NCBI RefSeq assembly: GCF_011801125.1
Contig: NZ_CP046171.1
Location: 6,572,001 to 6,636,000 of the forward strand
DNA from: Nocardia brasiliensis
GTDB lineage: Bacteria > Actinomycetota > Actinomycetes > Mycobacteriales > Mycobacteriaceae
DNA length: 64,000 nucleotides
Direction: 5' to 3'
The notes beneath the pieces were generated by a model, which saw only the letters and a program-made list of their open reading frames with translations, was not told the origin of the DNA and did not search any database. This document shows positions 2,006 to 44,779 of the stretch, in pieces. The position numbers and the translations under genes were made by a program. Numbering within the stretch: position 1 is the first letter of the stretch; every line of letters begins with the position of its first letter.

Positions 2006-2082
2006 GTGAGCGAGCGAAGCGAGAGAAGCGTGTCACAGCGCCCCTCGCGCATGTCTGTGGTGAGCGCCAGCGAAGCACAGAC
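2006..2082 (+). repeat. 77-bp start-codon repeat, copy A (encodes a 26-residue leader ORF)
   Basis: First of three copies of a 77-bp unit that ends exactly at the start codon of a gene (here ATG 2083). It reads GTG AGC GAG CGA AGC GAG and continues in frame for 26 codons (MSERSERSVSQR...SASEAQT). Its TGA (2084-2086) overlaps the ATG of the WXG100 gene. A purine-rich GAAG lies 7 bases before the ATG. The bases TGAGCGA occur at both borders (2007-2013 and 2084-2090). The other copies are at 8645 and 43155. Whether the peptide is made is unknown. Confidence 0.7.
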
Positions 2083-2415
2083 ATGAGCGACGGGGGTGCG
2101 CCAGGACAGCACGTATATGTGCTACCCGACCGTGTCCGTGAGGTCGGCACCTACGTCTACGAGTTGGCCGAGGCGTTGCGGTCCGCGTTGAATGCCGCGG
2201 CCAAGGACGTCGACGCGCTGACCGCGGGCAGCTGGACAGGCGATTCGGCCACCGAGTTCGCCAACGGCTGGACCGCTGTGCGCGACGGCGGCATCCAGAT
2301 CATGTCCGCGCTGACCGGCATGGCCGAGAAGCTCGGCGTCACCGCAGACACCTATCAGCACCGCGACGACAGCAACGCGGCCGCGCTGCACACCTCCAGC
2401 CTGGATCTGCCATGA
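2083..2415 (+). CDS. WXG100-like type VII secretion substrate
   Basis: This 110-residue helical protein has the size and helix-turn-helix plan of the WXG100/ESAT-6 family. A SWTGDSA turn (WxG) falls near residues 48-54, between two predicted helices. Such proteins are exported by ESX/type VII machines and often sit just before polymorphic toxins as partners or carriers. The start ATG 2083 overlaps the stop of the upstream 26-codon leader. Its own stop overlaps the next gene by ATGA at 2412, so the two are probably translationally coupled. No ESX apparatus gene is visible in the window. Confidence 0.8.
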   Translation: MSDGGAPGQHVYVLPDRVREVGTYVYELAEALRSALNAAAKDVDALTAGSWTGDSATEFANGWTAVRDGGIQIMSALTGMAEKLGVTADTYQHRDDSNAAALHTSSLDLP

Positions 2416-8644: not shown

Positions 8645-8721
8645 GTGAGTGAGCGAAGCGAACGAACCATGTGCCAGCGCGCTTTGCGCACTGCGGAGCC
8701 GAGCGCTAGCGAGGTGCAGCA
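8645..8721 (+). repeat. 77-bp start-codon repeat, copy B (26-residue leader ORF)
   Basis: The second copy is GTG AGT GAG CGA AGC GAA CGA ... GCT AGC GAG, reading 26 codons (MSERSERTMCQR...SASEVQQ). Its TGA overlaps GTG 8722 of the SDR gene. It starts 3 bases after the monooxygenase stop. GAGG lies 7 bases before GTG 8722. A perfect 12-base direct repeat (AGCAGTGAGTGA) borders it at 8641-8652 and 8718-8729. A GGGAG at about 8633-8637 gives the leader GTG a good ribosome-binding site, which was perhaps the original SDR site. Confidence 0.75.
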
Positions 8722-9552
8722 GTGAGTGATGATGTTTACTTCAAGGGCAAAGTCTGTGTGATCACCGGCGCCGGGTCCGGCATCGGCCGCGCACTCGCCG
8801 AGAATCTGGCCAAGCGCGGCGCCAAGCTCGCGCTCTCCGATATCGACACCGACGGTCTCGCCGAGACCGTGGCGCGCTGCGAAAAGCTGGGCGCCGAGGT
8901 GAAATCCGATCGGATCAACGTCGCCGAGCGCGAGGCCGTGCTGCTCTACGCCGACGCGGTGAAGGCGCATTTCGGTGTGGTGCACCAGATTTACAACAAC
9001 GCGGGCATCGCCTACCACGGTGACGTCGTCAAGACCGAGTTCAAGGACTTCGATCGGGTCATGGACGTCGATTTCTGGGGCGTCGTGAACGGCACCAAAG
9101 CGTTCCTGCCGTTCCTGATCGAGTCCGGCGCGGGCCATGTGGTGAACGTGTCCAGCCTGTTCGGTCTGATCGCGGTACCCGGCCAAAGTGCCTACAACTC
9201 GGCGAAATTCGCGGTGCGCGGCTTCACCGAGGCGCTGCGCCAGGAGATGCTGGTCGGCAGGCACCCGGTCAAGGTCACCTGCGTGCATCCCGGCGGAATC
9301 AAGACCGCGGTCGCCCGCAACGCCGGCTACGCCGAAGGTATCGACGGCAAGCAGGCGGCCTCGCTGTTCGATTCGAAGCTGGCCATACACAGCCCGGAGA
9401 TGGCCGCGCAGACCATCACCGAGGGGGTGCGCAAAGGCCACGGCCGGGTGCTGATCGGATTCGAAGCAAAGCTGATCGACCTGTTCGTGCGGGTCACCGC
9501 GTCCGGCTATCAGCGCCTCGCCACCGTCGTGAACCGCCAGATCCTACCCTGA
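8722..9552 (+). CDS. Short-chain dehydrogenase/reductase
   Basis: This 276-residue classical SDR has the cofactor motif TGAGSGIG at residues 15-22, YNNAGIAYHG with NNAG at 92-95, a serine in VNVSSLFG, and the catalytic Y158xxxK162 (AYNSAKFA). It probably oxidises or reduces an alcohol/ketone made by the neighbouring monooxygenase, as SadH does in the mymA operon. It starts at GTG 8722, preceded by GAGG 7 bases upstream inside repeat copy B and overlapping the leader stop. The esterase follows after 14 bases. Confidence 0.92.
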   Translation: MSDDVYFKGKVCVITGAGSGIGRALAENLAKRGAKLALSDIDTDGLAETVARCEKLGAEVKSDRINVAEREAVLLYADAVKAHFGVVHQIYNNAGIAYHGDVVKTEFKDFDRVMDVDFWGVVNGTKAFLPFLIESGAGHVVNVSSLFGLIAVPGQSAYNSAKFAVRGFTEALRQEMLVGRHPVKVTCVHPGGIKTAVARNAGYAEGIDGKQAASLFDSKLAIHSPEMAAQTITEGVRKGHGRVLIGFEAKLIDLFVRVTASGYQRLATVVNRQILP

Positions 9553-29599: not shown

Positions 29600-30886
29600 A
29601 TGGCAGCTACCAGGGTGTACGTCGCCAGGCTGGCTGGCCTGGTGGTGTTGGGGCCGGACGGCGAGTCTATCGGCCGGGTCCGTGACGTCGTCGTGGCCAT
29701 CCGCTACGACCGCCAGCAACCCAGGGTGCACGGTCTGGTCGTCGAATTGCCGACGCGGCGCCGCATTTTCGTGCCGATGCTGCGGGTCACCGCGATCGAG
29801 CCGGGGGTGGTCACGCTCAATACCGGCACGGTGAGCCTGCGCCGGTTCCATCAGCGCCCCGGTGAGCTGCTCGCGCTCGCGCAGATCGTGGATTCGTCGG
29901 TGCGGGTGGAAGATCCCGACCTGCCCGACCTGCACGGGGTGGACGTCTTCGTGGTCGATCTCGGCATCGAACTGACCCGCACCAGGGACTGGCGGGTGAA
30001 CCGGGTCGCGGTGCGCGGGCATCGCAGGCTCGGCCGCCGCCGCACCGTGCACGTGGTGGATTGGACCCATGTCGCCGGGCTCACCCCGTACGAGATCGGC
30101 AGGCCCGGCCAGGACGTCACCCAGCTGCTGGAGCAGTTCGAGGGCATGCGACCCGCCGACGTCGCCCACCTGCTGCGCGAGCTGCCGGACAAGCGCAGGC
30201 TCGAGGTGGCCATCGCGCTGGACGACGAACGCCTCGCCGACGTCGTGCAGGAGCTCCCCGACGACGAGCAGGTCGAGCTGCTCGGTCGGCTGGAGGTGCG
30301 CCGCGCCGCCGACGTACTCGAGGCGATGGACCCCGACGACGCGGCCGACCTGCTCGGCGAGTTGCCCGTCGGCGAGGCCGAATCGCTGCTGGCGCTGATG
30401 GACCCGCAGGAGTCGGAACCGGTCCGCAGGCTGCTCGAGCATTCGCCGTACAGCGCGGGCGGTCTGATGACACCCAAGCCGGTGATCCTCACACCGTCCA
30501 CCACGGTCGCCGAGGCGCTGGCCCGGGTGCGCAACCCGGACCTGACGCCCGCGCTGGCCTCGATGGTGTTCGTGGTCCGGCCGCCCACCGCCACACCGAC
30601 CGGGCGCTACCTCGGTTCGGTCCATATCCAGCAGCTGTTGCGGGAACCACCGGCGCATCTGGTCGGCGGCATCCTCGACGCCGACCTGGCCCCGCTGCGT
30701 CCTGAGGTGCCGCTGGCCGCGGTGACCCGCTACTTCGCGACCTACAACCTGGTCTGCGGGCCGGTGGTGGACGACGAGAACCATCTGCTCGGCGCCGTCA
30801 GCGTGGACGACGTGCTGGACCATCTGCTACCCGACGACTGGCGCGACCAGGAAGAGCTGCACGAGGGGGTATCGGGACATGAGTGA
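29600..30886 (+). CDS. PRC-barrel / MgtE-N / CBS-domain protein
   Basis: A 428-residue cytosolic protein. Residues 1-90 look like a PRC barrel (LVVLGPDGESIGRVRDVVVAIRYD). Residues about 170-300 carry MgtE-N helical repeats (FEGMRPADVAHLLRELPDKRRLEVAIALDDERLADVV..., MDPDDAADLLGELP). The C-terminal part is a CBS pair beginning SAGGLMTPKPVILTP. It lacks the membrane channel of true MgtE, as does Rv1232c. It may be a Mg2+ or nucleotide sensor working with CorA. ATG 29600 is the first plausible start after the divergent CitE gene. Confidence 0.9.
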   Translation: MAATRVYVARLAGLVVLGPDGESIGRVRDVVVAIRYDRQQPRVHGLVVELPTRRRIFVPMLRVTAIEPGVVTLNTGTVSLRRFHQRPGELLALAQIVDSSVRVEDPDLPDLHGVDVFVVDLGIELTRTRDWRVNRVAVRGHRRLGRRRTVHVVDWTHVAGLTPYEIGRPGQDVTQLLEQFEGMRPADVAHLLRELPDKRRLEVAIALDDERLADVVQELPDDEQVELLGRLEVRRAADVLEAMDPDDAADLLGELPVGEAESLLALMDPQESEPVRRLLEHSPYSAGGLMTPKPVILTPSTTVAEALARVRNPDLTPALASMVFVVRPPTATPTGRYLGSVHIQQLLREPPAHLVGGILDADLAPLRPEVPLAAVTRYFATYNLVCGPVVDDENHLLGAVSVDDVLDHLLPDDWRDQEELHEGVSGHE

Positions 30887-30919
30887 TACGGCGCGATCGA
30901 CCGCCGGCGAGGTGCGGTC

Positions 30920-31483
30920 ATGACCGAAAAGCTCGGCGGCGCCCGGCAGCGGCTGGAGACGCCGGTCGAAGGCCGGTTCCGGATCGACTGGGATGCCGAG
31001 GCGCTCGCGCGCAGCAGCGAACGCGTCGCCCGCTTCCTCGGTACCGGCCGCTACCTGGCCATACAGACGATCGTCGTGGTTGTTTGGATCGCGTTAAATG
31101 TTTCGGTCGTGGCGTTGCGCTGGGATCCGTATCCCTTCATTCTGTTGAATCTGGCGTTCTCGACCCAGGCGGCCTACGCCGCGCCGCTGATCCTGCTGGC
31201 GCAGAACCGGCAGGACAACCGGGACCGGGTCTCGCTGGAGGAAGACCGGATGCGGGCCGCGCAGACCAAGGCGGACACCGAATTTCTGGCCAGGGAACTC
31301 GCCGCGCTGCGGATCGCGGTCGGTGAAGTGGCGACGCGCGACTATCTGCGCCGGGAATTGGAGGAGCTGAAGGAGGTACTCGACCGGATCGAGGGCGCGG
31401 GCGCCGAGAAGACCCGGCGCAAGAAAAACTCCGCCCGAAAGCAGGCTCAGATCCAGGTTTCGCCACCTGTAGCTGATGATTGA
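30920..31483 (+). CDS. DUF1003 membrane protein
   Basis: 187 residues with two membrane spans (YLAIQTIVVVVWIALNVSVV and PFILLNLAFSTQAAYAAPLILLAQNRQ, the DUF1003 signature) and a long charged coiled-coil tail ending in Lys/Arg-rich sequence. It corresponds to Rv1231c. ATG 30920 overlaps the TGA of a 14-codon mini-ORF (30879-30923, MSDTARSTAGEVRS) that itself overlaps the previous stop, giving a chained start/stop linkage between the two genes. Confidence 0.88.
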   Translation: MTEKLGGARQRLETPVEGRFRIDWDAEALARSSERVARFLGTGRYLAIQTIVVVVWIALNVSVVALRWDPYPFILLNLAFSTQAAYAAPLILLAQNRQDNRDRVSLEEDRMRAAQTKADTEFLARELAALRIAVGEVATRDYLRRELEELKEVLDRIEGAGAEKTRRKKNSARKQAQIQVSPPVADD

Positions 31484-43154: not shown

Positions 43155-43231
43155 GTGACTGAGCGGAGCGAGGGAACCATTGGCACAGCACGCCTCGGCA
43201 CGACGCAGCCGAGCGTCAGCGAGGCGGGGTC
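43155..43231 (+). repeat. 77-bp start-codon repeat, copy C (26-residue leader ORF)
   Basis: The third copy, between rseA and htrA, reads GTG ACT GAG CGG AGC GAG GGA ... GTC AGC GAG for 26 codons (MTERSEGTIGTA...SVSEAGS). Its TGA overlaps GTG 43232 of htrA. GAGG is 7 bases before that GTG. CGTGACTGA repeats at 43154-43162 and 43231-43239. It starts 10 bases after the rseA stop and has no clear ribosome-binding site of its own. Confidence 0.72.
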
Positions 43232-44779
43232 GTGACTGAATCGACGAATAGCGGATCGCCTGAAGCTGCGGATCACATCCAGGACAGGCCTTCGGATTCG
43301 GCGCCCAGGGGAACGCTGCGGCCGCCGGACGCGCCCGTGCTCGGCCCGCGCCCGGTGTATCGCCCGCATGTCGACACCCATACCGCCCGCGCGTTCCGCA
43401 GGCCGTCCGGGCAGTCGGGTTCGTTCGCCGAACCACTGCCCCGCGGTACGGCTCCGATCGCGGACGCGGATCTGCAGAACCGCCCGCCGGACGCGGTGCT
43501 GGCCGAGGCGTTCGGCCGCCCGGCCGGTTCCAGCGAACTGCTGCAACGTGACCCCGACGCGACCGAGGACACCCCGACCGTCGCGGGCCCGGTCGATCCG
43601 TGGCGCGATCCGGCGGCGGCCGCGCGGCTCGGCGCCCCCGCCGTGCCCACCCCCGTGACCGCGGCGCTGCCCGAGGCACCGCGGTTGAGCGCCCGCGAGG
43701 TGCTCTTCGGTTCCCGGGTCGCGCCCAAGTCGCTCGCGCTGCTCGCCGTCGTAGCCCTCGCGATCGGCGTGCTCGGCGGCCTGGTCGGCAGGCTGACCGC
43801 CGAACAGGCCTCGGTGCTCACCTCGCGCGGCGTCGAACTGAAGCAGACCGGCGGCATCGAGCAGCCGCACAGCCAGATCGCCAAAGTGGCCAACGCCGTG
43901 CTGCCCGCGGTGGTGTCCATCCGGGTCACCGTCGGCGACAACGGCGCGACCGGTTCCGGCGTGGTGATCGACGGCGCGGGTTTCATCACCACCAACAACC
44001 ACGTGGTGTCGATGGCCGCCCAGGACAAGACCAACCGGGCGACCATCCAGGTCACCTTCTCCGACGGCACCAAGGTGCCTGCCAACATCGTGGGCCGCGA
44101 CCCGAAGTCCGACCTCGCGGTGCTCAAGGTGGACGTCAAGAACCTCACCGTGGCCAAACTCGGCAAGTCCGACGACGTCCAAGTCGGTGACGAGGTGCTG
44201 GCCATCGGTTCGCCGCTCGGGTTGAGCAAGACGGTGACCTCCGGCATCGTCAGTGCGCTGCACCGTCCGGTGGCGCTCGAGGGCGAGGGCAGCGACACCA
44301 AGGCGGTGATCGACGCGGTGCAGACCGATGCCTCGATCAACCCCGGCAACTCCGGCGGCGCGCTGGTGGACATGGAAGGCCGGTTGATCGGCATCAACAC
44401 CGCGATCCGCAGCGAGTCCGGCGGCTCGGTCGGTCTCGGCTTCGCCATTCCGATCGATCAGGTGACCACGGTCGCACAGACCCTGATCCGCGACGGCGTC
44501 GTGCATCACCCGCAGCTCGGTGTCAGCGCGCAGACCAAGAACGTCGCCAACGAGGTGATGTCGGGAGCGCGCGTCGCCGATGTCGTGCCGGGCAGCCCCG
44601 CGGCCCGAGCAGGCATCGTCGAGGGCGATGTCATCGTCAAGGTCGGCGACCGCGACGTGACCTCGCGCGACGAGCTGGTGCTCGCGGTACAGCTGAACAA
44701 GATCGGCGACACGGTCACCGTGCAGCTGATCCGCGACGGCAGGCGGGTGGACGTGCAGGCCACGCTGGAGTCCGACTGA
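43232..44779 (+). CDS. htrA: Membrane-bound serine protease HtrA (DegP family)
   Basis: 515 residues. A Pro-rich cytoplasmic N-terminus of about 160 residues precedes one membrane helix (SLALLAVVALAIGVLGGLVG). The trypsin-like protease has His257 (TTNNHVV), Asp294 (PKSDLAVLKV) and Ser374 (NPGNSGGALV), and a C-terminal PDZ domain ends in VTVQLIRDGRRVDVQ. It degrades or chaperones misfolded envelope proteins and belongs to the SigE regulon in mycobacteria. GTG 43232 is preceded by GAGG within repeat copy C. Confidence 0.95.
   Translation: MTESTNSGSPEAADHIQDRPSDSAPRGTLRPPDAPVLGPRPVYRPHVDTHTARAFRRPSGQSGSFAEPLPRGTAPIADADLQNRPPDAVLAEAFGRPAGSSELLQRDPDATEDTPTVAGPVDPWRDPAAAARLGAPAVPTPVTAALPEAPRLSAREVLFGSRVAPKSLALLAVVALAIGVLGGLVGRLTAEQASVLTSRGVELKQTGGIEQPHSQIAKVANAVLPAVVSIRVTVGDNGATGSGVVIDGAGFITTNNHVVSMAAQDKTNRATIQVTFSDGTKVPANIVGRDPKSDLAVLKVDVKNLTVAKLGKSDDVQVGDEVLAIGSPLGLSKTVTSGIVSALHRPVALEGEGSDTKAVIDAVQTDASINPGNSGGALVDMEGRLIGINTAIRSESGGSVGLGFAIPIDQVTTVAQTLIRDGVVHHPQLGVSAQTKNVANEVMSGARVADVVPGSPAARAGIVEGDVIVKVGDRDVTSRDELVLAVQLNKIGDTVTVQLIRDGRRVDVQATLESD

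Follow-up and report, generated by a model that had tools for sequence, protein, structure and literature searches.

A probable MIRU-like mobile repeat at gene starts in Nocardia that may relay ribosomes through a stop/start overlap

Element copies in the window and across the genus

The window, a 64,000-nucleotide stretch of the Nocardia brasiliensis genome, contains three 77-bp copies of a short element (A, B, and C in Table 1). Each copy begins with GTG, and the next gene starts exactly 77 bases on, with ATG after copy A and GTG after copies B and C. The copies are themselves 26-residue reading frames (VSERSE... or VTERSE...) in which the TGA overlaps the next start codon as RTGA, and in all three a purine-rich GARG ends 7 bases 5′ of the gene start. 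The overlapping 26-codon frame and the spacing of the GARG had been described from the letters of this stretch alone (the sequence-only reading), and both are found in every one of these copies. That the three downstream genes are unrelated, as was also claimed, agrees with Pfam, which places their products in the WXG100/EspC (A), short-chain dehydrogenase (B), and trypsin plus PDZ, HtrA-type (C) families. A sequence-only profile (R1) built from 12 genome copies gives just three strong matches in the window, at 69–72 bits, and the next best match scores 14.2 bits. A weak profile match at 30889–30923 led to a fourth copy, shortened to 41 bp; the sequence-only reading was correct about the three copies that it placed but missed this one. 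An Rfam search of the window returned no match.

Table 1. Copies of the element in the 64,000-nucleotide window, with their leader frames and 3′ hairpins
Feature	Position	Strand	Remarks
Element copy A, 77 bp	2006–2082	+	Before WXG100/EspC-like gene 2083–2415; R1 69.4 bits
Leader ORF of copy A	2006–2086	+	26 codons plus TGA overlapping ATG 2083
3′ hairpin of copy A	2050–2085	+	Arms 2050–2059 and 2076–2085, the second containing start codon ATG 2083–2085; GAAG 2072–2075; predicted from RNA fold and family covariation
Element copy B, 77 bp	8645–8721	+	Before short-chain dehydrogenase gene 8722–9552; R1 71.6 bits
Leader ORF of copy B	8645–8725	+	26 codons plus TGA overlapping GTG 8722
3′ hairpin of copy B	8689–8724	+	Outer arms 8689–8694 and 8719–8724; start GTG 8722–8724; GAGG 8711–8714; predicted from RNA fold and family covariation
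Shortened element copy, 41 bp	30879–30919	+	14-codon leader ending on ATGA 30920; before DUF1003 gene 30920–31483; R1 13.6 bits, E 0.0054
Element copy C, 77 bp	43155–43231	+	Before trypsin-PDZ (HtrA-type) gene 43232–44779; R1 70.1 bits
Leader ORF of copy C	43155–43235	+	26 codons plus TGA overlapping GTG 43232
3′ hairpin of copy C	43199–43234	+	Outer arms 43199–43204 and 43229–43234; start GTG 43232–43234; GAGG 43221–43224; predicted from RNA fold and family covariation

The element recurs in the source genome, which is 7.95 Mb in one contig. With at most one mismatch, the start motif matches 28 times, some of these matches not being elements, compared with once for a reversed control pattern. 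Of 150 candidates scored with the profile, at least 65 match at E < 1e-4, and 79 do so at E ≤ 0.01. Together, the 28 matches against one and the 65 profile matches argue that this recurrence is not due to chance. Among 60 genomes, 45 match the profile at E ≤ 0.01: the source genome, 33 of 35 others in the genus, and 11 of 24 from other families, ten of which have only one to three weak matches. The eleventh (G050), from another family of the same order, has 11 profile matches, the best at E 8.2e-9. Within the genus, matches per genome range from 0 (G011 and G020) to at least 79 (G009), with 75 candidates scored per genome, such that the high counts are lower bounds.

An exact-pattern search of a named collection gave 91 stretches; among the 80 matches listed, 79 are from Nocardia, spread over about 21 named species, and the other is from Kribbella turkmenica (L292). 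The Kribbella copy is a full element with an open 27-codon leader ending on ATGA, and it may reflect horizontal transfer or a mislabeled or contaminating contig. R1 has matches at E ≤ 1e-5 in 26 of 301 sampled genomes of the family; 24 belong to the element's own genus and the rest to two other genera. Six of the seven matches in these two genera (L347–L353) have an open leader of 22–27 codons that ends on RTGA, with element lengths of 80, 80, 80, 77, 77, and 65, indicating that the plan of the element is not limited to Nocardia. The seven look like sibling elements that share the RTGA ends and the leader frame and differ in their middle letters.

Insertion sites, leader frame, and hairpins

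Each of the 11 genes compared at their starts, the three window genes included, has an empty site in one or more relatives. The relatives are G008 (the closest of those used), G017, which is sequence-identical to an N. ninae record, and G009, which is sequence-identical to an N. pseudovaccinii record. Genes outside the window were assigned by reading N-termini, and we take them to be nuoH, hisC, pyrB, purB, qcrB, and so on. The sites of copies A and B are empty in G008, G017, and G009; for copy C, at htrA, G008 and G009 were read, and both are empty. The nuoH start is filled in the source genome and empty in G008 and G017. At hisC, the source genome is filled and G008 is empty, and the left-end motif is present at 1 of 24 genus loci, that of the source genome; at pyrB, the source genome, G008, and G009 are filled and G017 is empty, and the motif is present at those 3 of 24 loci. 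The start comparison covered 3 of 30 nuoH, 29 of 30 hisC, and 24 of 30 pyrB loci. A shortened copy occupies the hisA start in G017, with G008 and G009 empty. The qcrB start is filled in G009 and empty in G008 and G017; fbiC is filled in G008 and G017 and empty in G009; and the gene at L031 has an array in G008 and empty sites in G017 and G009. Finally, similar copies precede purB in the source genome, G017, and G009, and the site in G008 (L209) is empty, an apparent precise loss of the element.

The insertion point is RTGA, the start codon plus A, and RTGA is then present on both sides. In 155 non-tandem copies, the two borders agree at base 1 of RTGA in 129 (shuffled, 76.1 ± 6.2). There is a slight excess at base 5 (130 versus 127.1 ± 1.2) and base 6 (90 versus 76.0 ± 5.2) and hardly any at base 7 (97 versus 96.1 ± 1.1) or base 8 (59 versus 57.8 ± 0.7). 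A border duplication of 7–12 bases had been suggested from the window, where the border repeats of A, B, and C do measure 7, 12, and 8 bases, respectively. Family-wide, however, the repeat is essentially RTGA, and a 7–12-base target duplication was rejected because only RTGA stands out from the shuffles, bases 5 and 6 exceeding them weakly. The right borders of copies B (at 8722, GTGAGTGA) and C (at 43232, GTGACTGA) are the same as the element's own left end, and the relatives differ there. These letters are not accounted for by a simple duplication of RTGA and are a point against the reading that we favor below.

Elsewhere, too, copies are found at gene starts: 144 of the 155 copies without a following copy precede an ORF of at least 60 codons or one running off the fetched stretch. 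The clean empty sites in orthologues, with RTGA common to both borders, the leader frames, and this placement all support the proposal of the sequence-only reading that a copied or mobile cassette is fused to start codons and puts genes behind a short leader frame. Placement, frame, and orthologues are the three points on which that reading had said its proposal could fail, and the proposal withstands all three. The unit also forms tandem arrays (L034, L043, L345, L318, and others). Of four pairs of neighboring units compared, three are identical, and the fourth agrees at 77 of 80.

To describe the leader frame, 239 matches in three sets were reduced to 176 distinct complete copies (44 from the source genome, 43 from other genomes, and 89 from named records) by dropping 50 partial copies, 7 duplicates, and 6 without a left start codon. 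One copy is cut by the end of its stretch, and the analyses after the frame count (borders, indels, and hairpin bases) use 175. Length is 2 mod 3 in 160 of the 176 complete copies, with 100 of 77 bp and 55 of 80 bp, and the leader stop falls exactly on the RTGA overlap in 158; the frame is lost in 16 copies and broken by an internal stop in a further 2. With 158 of 176 leaders open to the overlap, reading frames in the other copies are not random. The indels fall into 24 distinct combinations, 13 of which keep the frame, compared with 8.0 ± 2.3 after shuffling (in 5000 shuffles, 13 was reached 135 times). Frequent pairings are +1 with −1 and +1 with +2. Counted by copies, the frame is kept in 160 of 175 versus 79.5 ± 6.2 shuffled, but copies share ancestry, such that this count overstates independence and the excess on distinct combinations is modest. 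All 11 delimited shortened copies (26–71 nt, picked by eye) are 2 mod 3 and in frame. Nine of these (26, 41, 41, 59, 62, 65, 68, 71, and 71 nt) came from 47 rows, the remainder of which start at motifs within full-length copies or (L230) show no other element feature; the other two are 68 nt in L196 and 56 nt in L085.

From 12 copies, RNAalifold predicted a hairpin at the 3′ side that takes in the start codon of the following gene. The family structure consists of a 5′ mini-hairpin around GCGNAGC and a 3′ hairpin of the form CAYGNC...GCC-GA-GC-GNNA-GC-GA-GGC...GNCRTG. Among 77 source-genome matches, 92.1% of cells are paired and two-sided change is seen at 11 pairs; none of 500 shuffles reaches any of five measures, and slid controls drop to 15–47% paired. 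The named-record set is 97.0% paired, again with 0 of 500 shuffles on all five measures, although much of the 5′ hairpin and of the inner 3′ stem was set by the pattern used to find these records. The outer stem with the start codon, which is free of the search pattern, pairs in 94.7% of that set. In the other-genomes set, 96.6% is paired, and 0 of 500 shuffles reach three of the measures, with 67 and 103 of 500 reaching the other two. Paired positions hold 178 G-U versus 19 A-C combinations, an excess that identifies the sense strand as the folded strand. Single-copy fold z values are −3.41 for A, −0.45 for B, and −0.56 for C; one of seven copies (L048) folds otherwise, and copy C folded with DNA parameters differs from its RNA fold. 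Because single copies are not always unusually stable, the hairpin claim is carried by covariation. GAGG is present in 169 of 175 copies, and its 7-nt spacing to the start is kept in 173 of 175. Judged by this covariation, the 3′ half of the element is a sense-strand hairpin with the ribosome site and the start codon of the gene inside it.

In 81 of 169 copies, an open frame at least 80 codons long stops at the TGA of the left RTGA. For copies without a preceding copy, the count is 80 of 141, compared with 61 of 215 control upstream TGAs, but the other two frames of the same 141 copies are open for 80 or more codons in 18 and 44, such that chance contributes to these open frames. The left TGA of copy A ends an ORF at 1209–2009, which overlaps the gene at 1–1908. 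A −10 box (TANNNT, 5–9 nt before the leader start) is found in 26 of 143 copies versus 8 of 858 control windows, with TAGACT 7 nt before the leader start of copy A, and a purine-rich motif resembling a ribosome site lies 5′ of the leader start in 83 of 146 copies versus 75 of 438 control windows. From these two motifs, the leader seems to inherit the former initiation signals of the gene.

A proposed ribosome relay and its rivals

We propose, with a probability of roughly 0.8, that the element is a MIRU-like mobile repeat, itself non-autonomous, and that it takes over a gene start and relays ribosomes to the gene through a −4 stop/start overlap. The element would insert in the sense orientation at an RTGA in which RTG is the gene's start codon. 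A leader of 26–27 codons would then begin at the old start, along with the initiation signals that formerly served the gene, and the gene would start at the second RTGA, overlapping the stop codon of the leader. A GAGG ribosome site 7 nt 5′ of the new start would be brought by the element itself, and the sense-strand hairpin would cover both this site and the new start. A ribosome translating the leader could open the hairpin, end on the overlapping start codon, and re-initiate there with help from GAGG. If translation is relayed in this manner through the overlap, insertion would do little harm. Translation of the leader, its coupling to the gene, and the dependence of mobility on an enzyme are inferred.

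Could the leader act as a peptide instead? A regulatory, attenuator-like leader peptide, in which the 26 residues matter and the copies form a conserved regulon, would fit the recurrence of the MSERSE and EPS.SE parts. In three length classes, the synonymous share is 0.26, 0.30, and 0.37 in the leader frame and 0.25/0.31, 0.23/0.29, and 0.24/0.22 in the other frames. Only the third of these (77b, 34 copies) leans toward peptide selection (0.365 versus 0.238 and 0.224), whereas the two larger classes have no clear excess, and peptide-level selection as a rule was rejected because the excess is not consistent across the classes. Moreover, paired indels alter the reading of the middle while the end stays in frame, and copies are placed differently in close relatives, before unrelated genes. 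We consider a functional peptide very unlikely. By these comparisons, the leader frame is conserved and the peptide is not consistently so. The sequence-only reading had described a conserved 26-codon leader ORF with several synonymous base differences between copies; given the synonymous shares and the compensating indels, such differences are not the rule. A frame and a start-codon hairpin that are kept while the peptide drifts form a selection signature that separates a ribosome relay from a functional peptide, and the relay appears to have the better evidence. It is also highly improbable, in our estimation, that the element is a selfish repeat without any coupling, its frame and hairpin being by-products of a transposition signal and biased survival. 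Patchy copy numbers, identical tandem units, the existence of out-of-frame copies, and the commonness of open frames in the background would all be expected of such a repeat. However, intact leaders are more common before an ORF of at least 60 codons (136 intact and 6 not) than without one (22 intact, 16 of which precede another copy, and 11 not), and shortened copies keep the frame.

A different set of questions concerns how the element moves. The base of the hairpin arm (CAYGNC) opposite the first base of the start codon forms a Watson-Crick pair with the right R and is wobble-tolerant with the left R: arm T occurs with left and right start bases A,A in 69 copies and G,A in 18, and arm C occurs with G,G in 55 and A,G in 4. 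If an arm T element simply duplicated a GTGA target, arm T would be expected with G,G, a combination present in 2 copies. The right RTG would thus be either brought by the element or later adjusted by selection. This pattern at the right RTG is the basis of the idea that the arm is a guide, the element picking ATGA or GTGA starts by pairing of arm and target and carrying the right RTG with it, such that the hairpin that hides the start would also be a homing device. Arm T elements would then enter ATG and, by wobble, GTG sites, and arm C elements almost only GTG sites. We regard this guide role as rather unlikely. Less credible still is that the element is of the REP/IS200-IS605 type, in which a Y1 (TnpA/RAYT) transposase would bind the hairpins and move the element in single-stranded form, with CAYGNC as a guide pairing with RTG at the cleavage or target site and the leader frame secondary. 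Hairpins at both ends on one strand, the bias to the sense strand, and the fit of the arm base to the left (target) base if wobble is allowed speak for such an element, which by itself, however, predicts no conserved reading frame. In addition, Y1 transposase (PF01797) has no match in 9 of 10 Nocardia genomes searched, the source genome and copy-rich ones included, and the sole match among the ten is a 57-residue frame in G009; this search, confined to Y1/PF01797, found no mobilizing enzyme. A MITE of DDE transposons would have terminal inverted repeats and fits poorly: judged on the consensus, the two ends of the element, RTGAGCGAGC... and ...GTGCAGNCRTGA, show no inverted match to each other.

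Comparison with known systems

The ribosome relay proposed here has its nearest counterpart in the mycobacterial interspersed repetitive units (MIRUs), reportedly described by Supply et al. in 1997. MIRUs are used worldwide for typing, their insertion target is DTGA, and their role at start codons has so far been argued from architecture; they are not known to have dyad symmetry. A review describes MIRUs as inserting into gene starts, where their ORF is coupled through a −4 nt overlap, with probably minimal impact on the gene (PMC12548453). Elsewhere, MIRU units are 40–100 bp at dozens of loci (PMC2734929), MIRU04 has 77-bp tandem units and 53-bp units (PMC2453075), a 77-nt class I MIRU accounts for the entire 5′ UTR of a gene whose counterpart in a relative is leaderless (PMC4128351), and MIRUs between senX3 and regX3 can drive expression (PMC4213456). 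For a different repeat locus, PMC2734929 also relates mRNA level to the length of the repeat. PMC4213456 confines MIRUs to M. leprae and the M. tuberculosis complex, and PMC12548453 places them in many mycobacteria.

The Nocardia element is like a MIRU in its size (77 or 80 bp in 155 of 176 complete copies), in its number of loci (at least 65 in the genome at E < 1e-4), and in its tandem arrays. It is likewise a small ORF overlapping its neighbors, with 158 of 176 leaders ending on RTGA and the left TGA ending a frame of 80 or more codons in 80 of 141, and its empty sites at RTGA starts in 11 of 11 genes recall the DTGA target. It differs in its genus: in the sample of 301 family genomes, R1 matches at E ≤ 1e-5 were limited to its own genus and two others. 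It also has a covarying hairpin over the start codon. By analogy of architecture and description, not of letters, the element closely resembles a MIRU. The MIRU04 locus, sought with a published primer in 401, 59, and 396 genomes, was not found.

REP/RAYT and IS200/IS605-derived elements are short, interspersed, and hairpin-bearing and lack a transposase gene, as does the Nocardia element, which differs from them in its sense orientation at starts, its conserved open frame, and the absence of a Y1 transposase from the source genome. Coupled gene pairs, as reviewed in PMC12548453, have a −4 nt overlap and an occluded downstream ribosome site. The RTGA overlap and the placement of GAGG and the start codon in a hairpin that upstream translation would open are similar, but here the entire device is an interspersed repeat at many unrelated genes. 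Rickettsia palindromic elements and enterobacterial RU elements are reported as in-frame insertions inside genes or as intergenic units (PMC10969869). These are also small repeats with open frames that contact host genes, whereas the Nocardia element ends on a start overlap with no protein fusion. A shallow literature search, with most subscription journals outside its reach, found no report of such a family in Nocardia, of a hairpin over the start codon, or of indels that keep the frame.

The present family is MIRU-like but lies in another genus, with empty sites and dozens of copies per genome. Natural insertions are available at the starts of core genes (presumably nuoH, hisC, pyrB, purB, and qcrB, as read from N-termini), and the coupling idea becomes testable outside pathogens that are on control lists. 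The family would also account for some gene products with N-terminal extensions of the MSERSE type. In L092, near 1002–1043 on the minus strand, and in L132 (the hisC of G019), 5′ parts of the element are fused in frame as such extensions (MSERSERTEGTAG... and MSERGEGTIVTA...).
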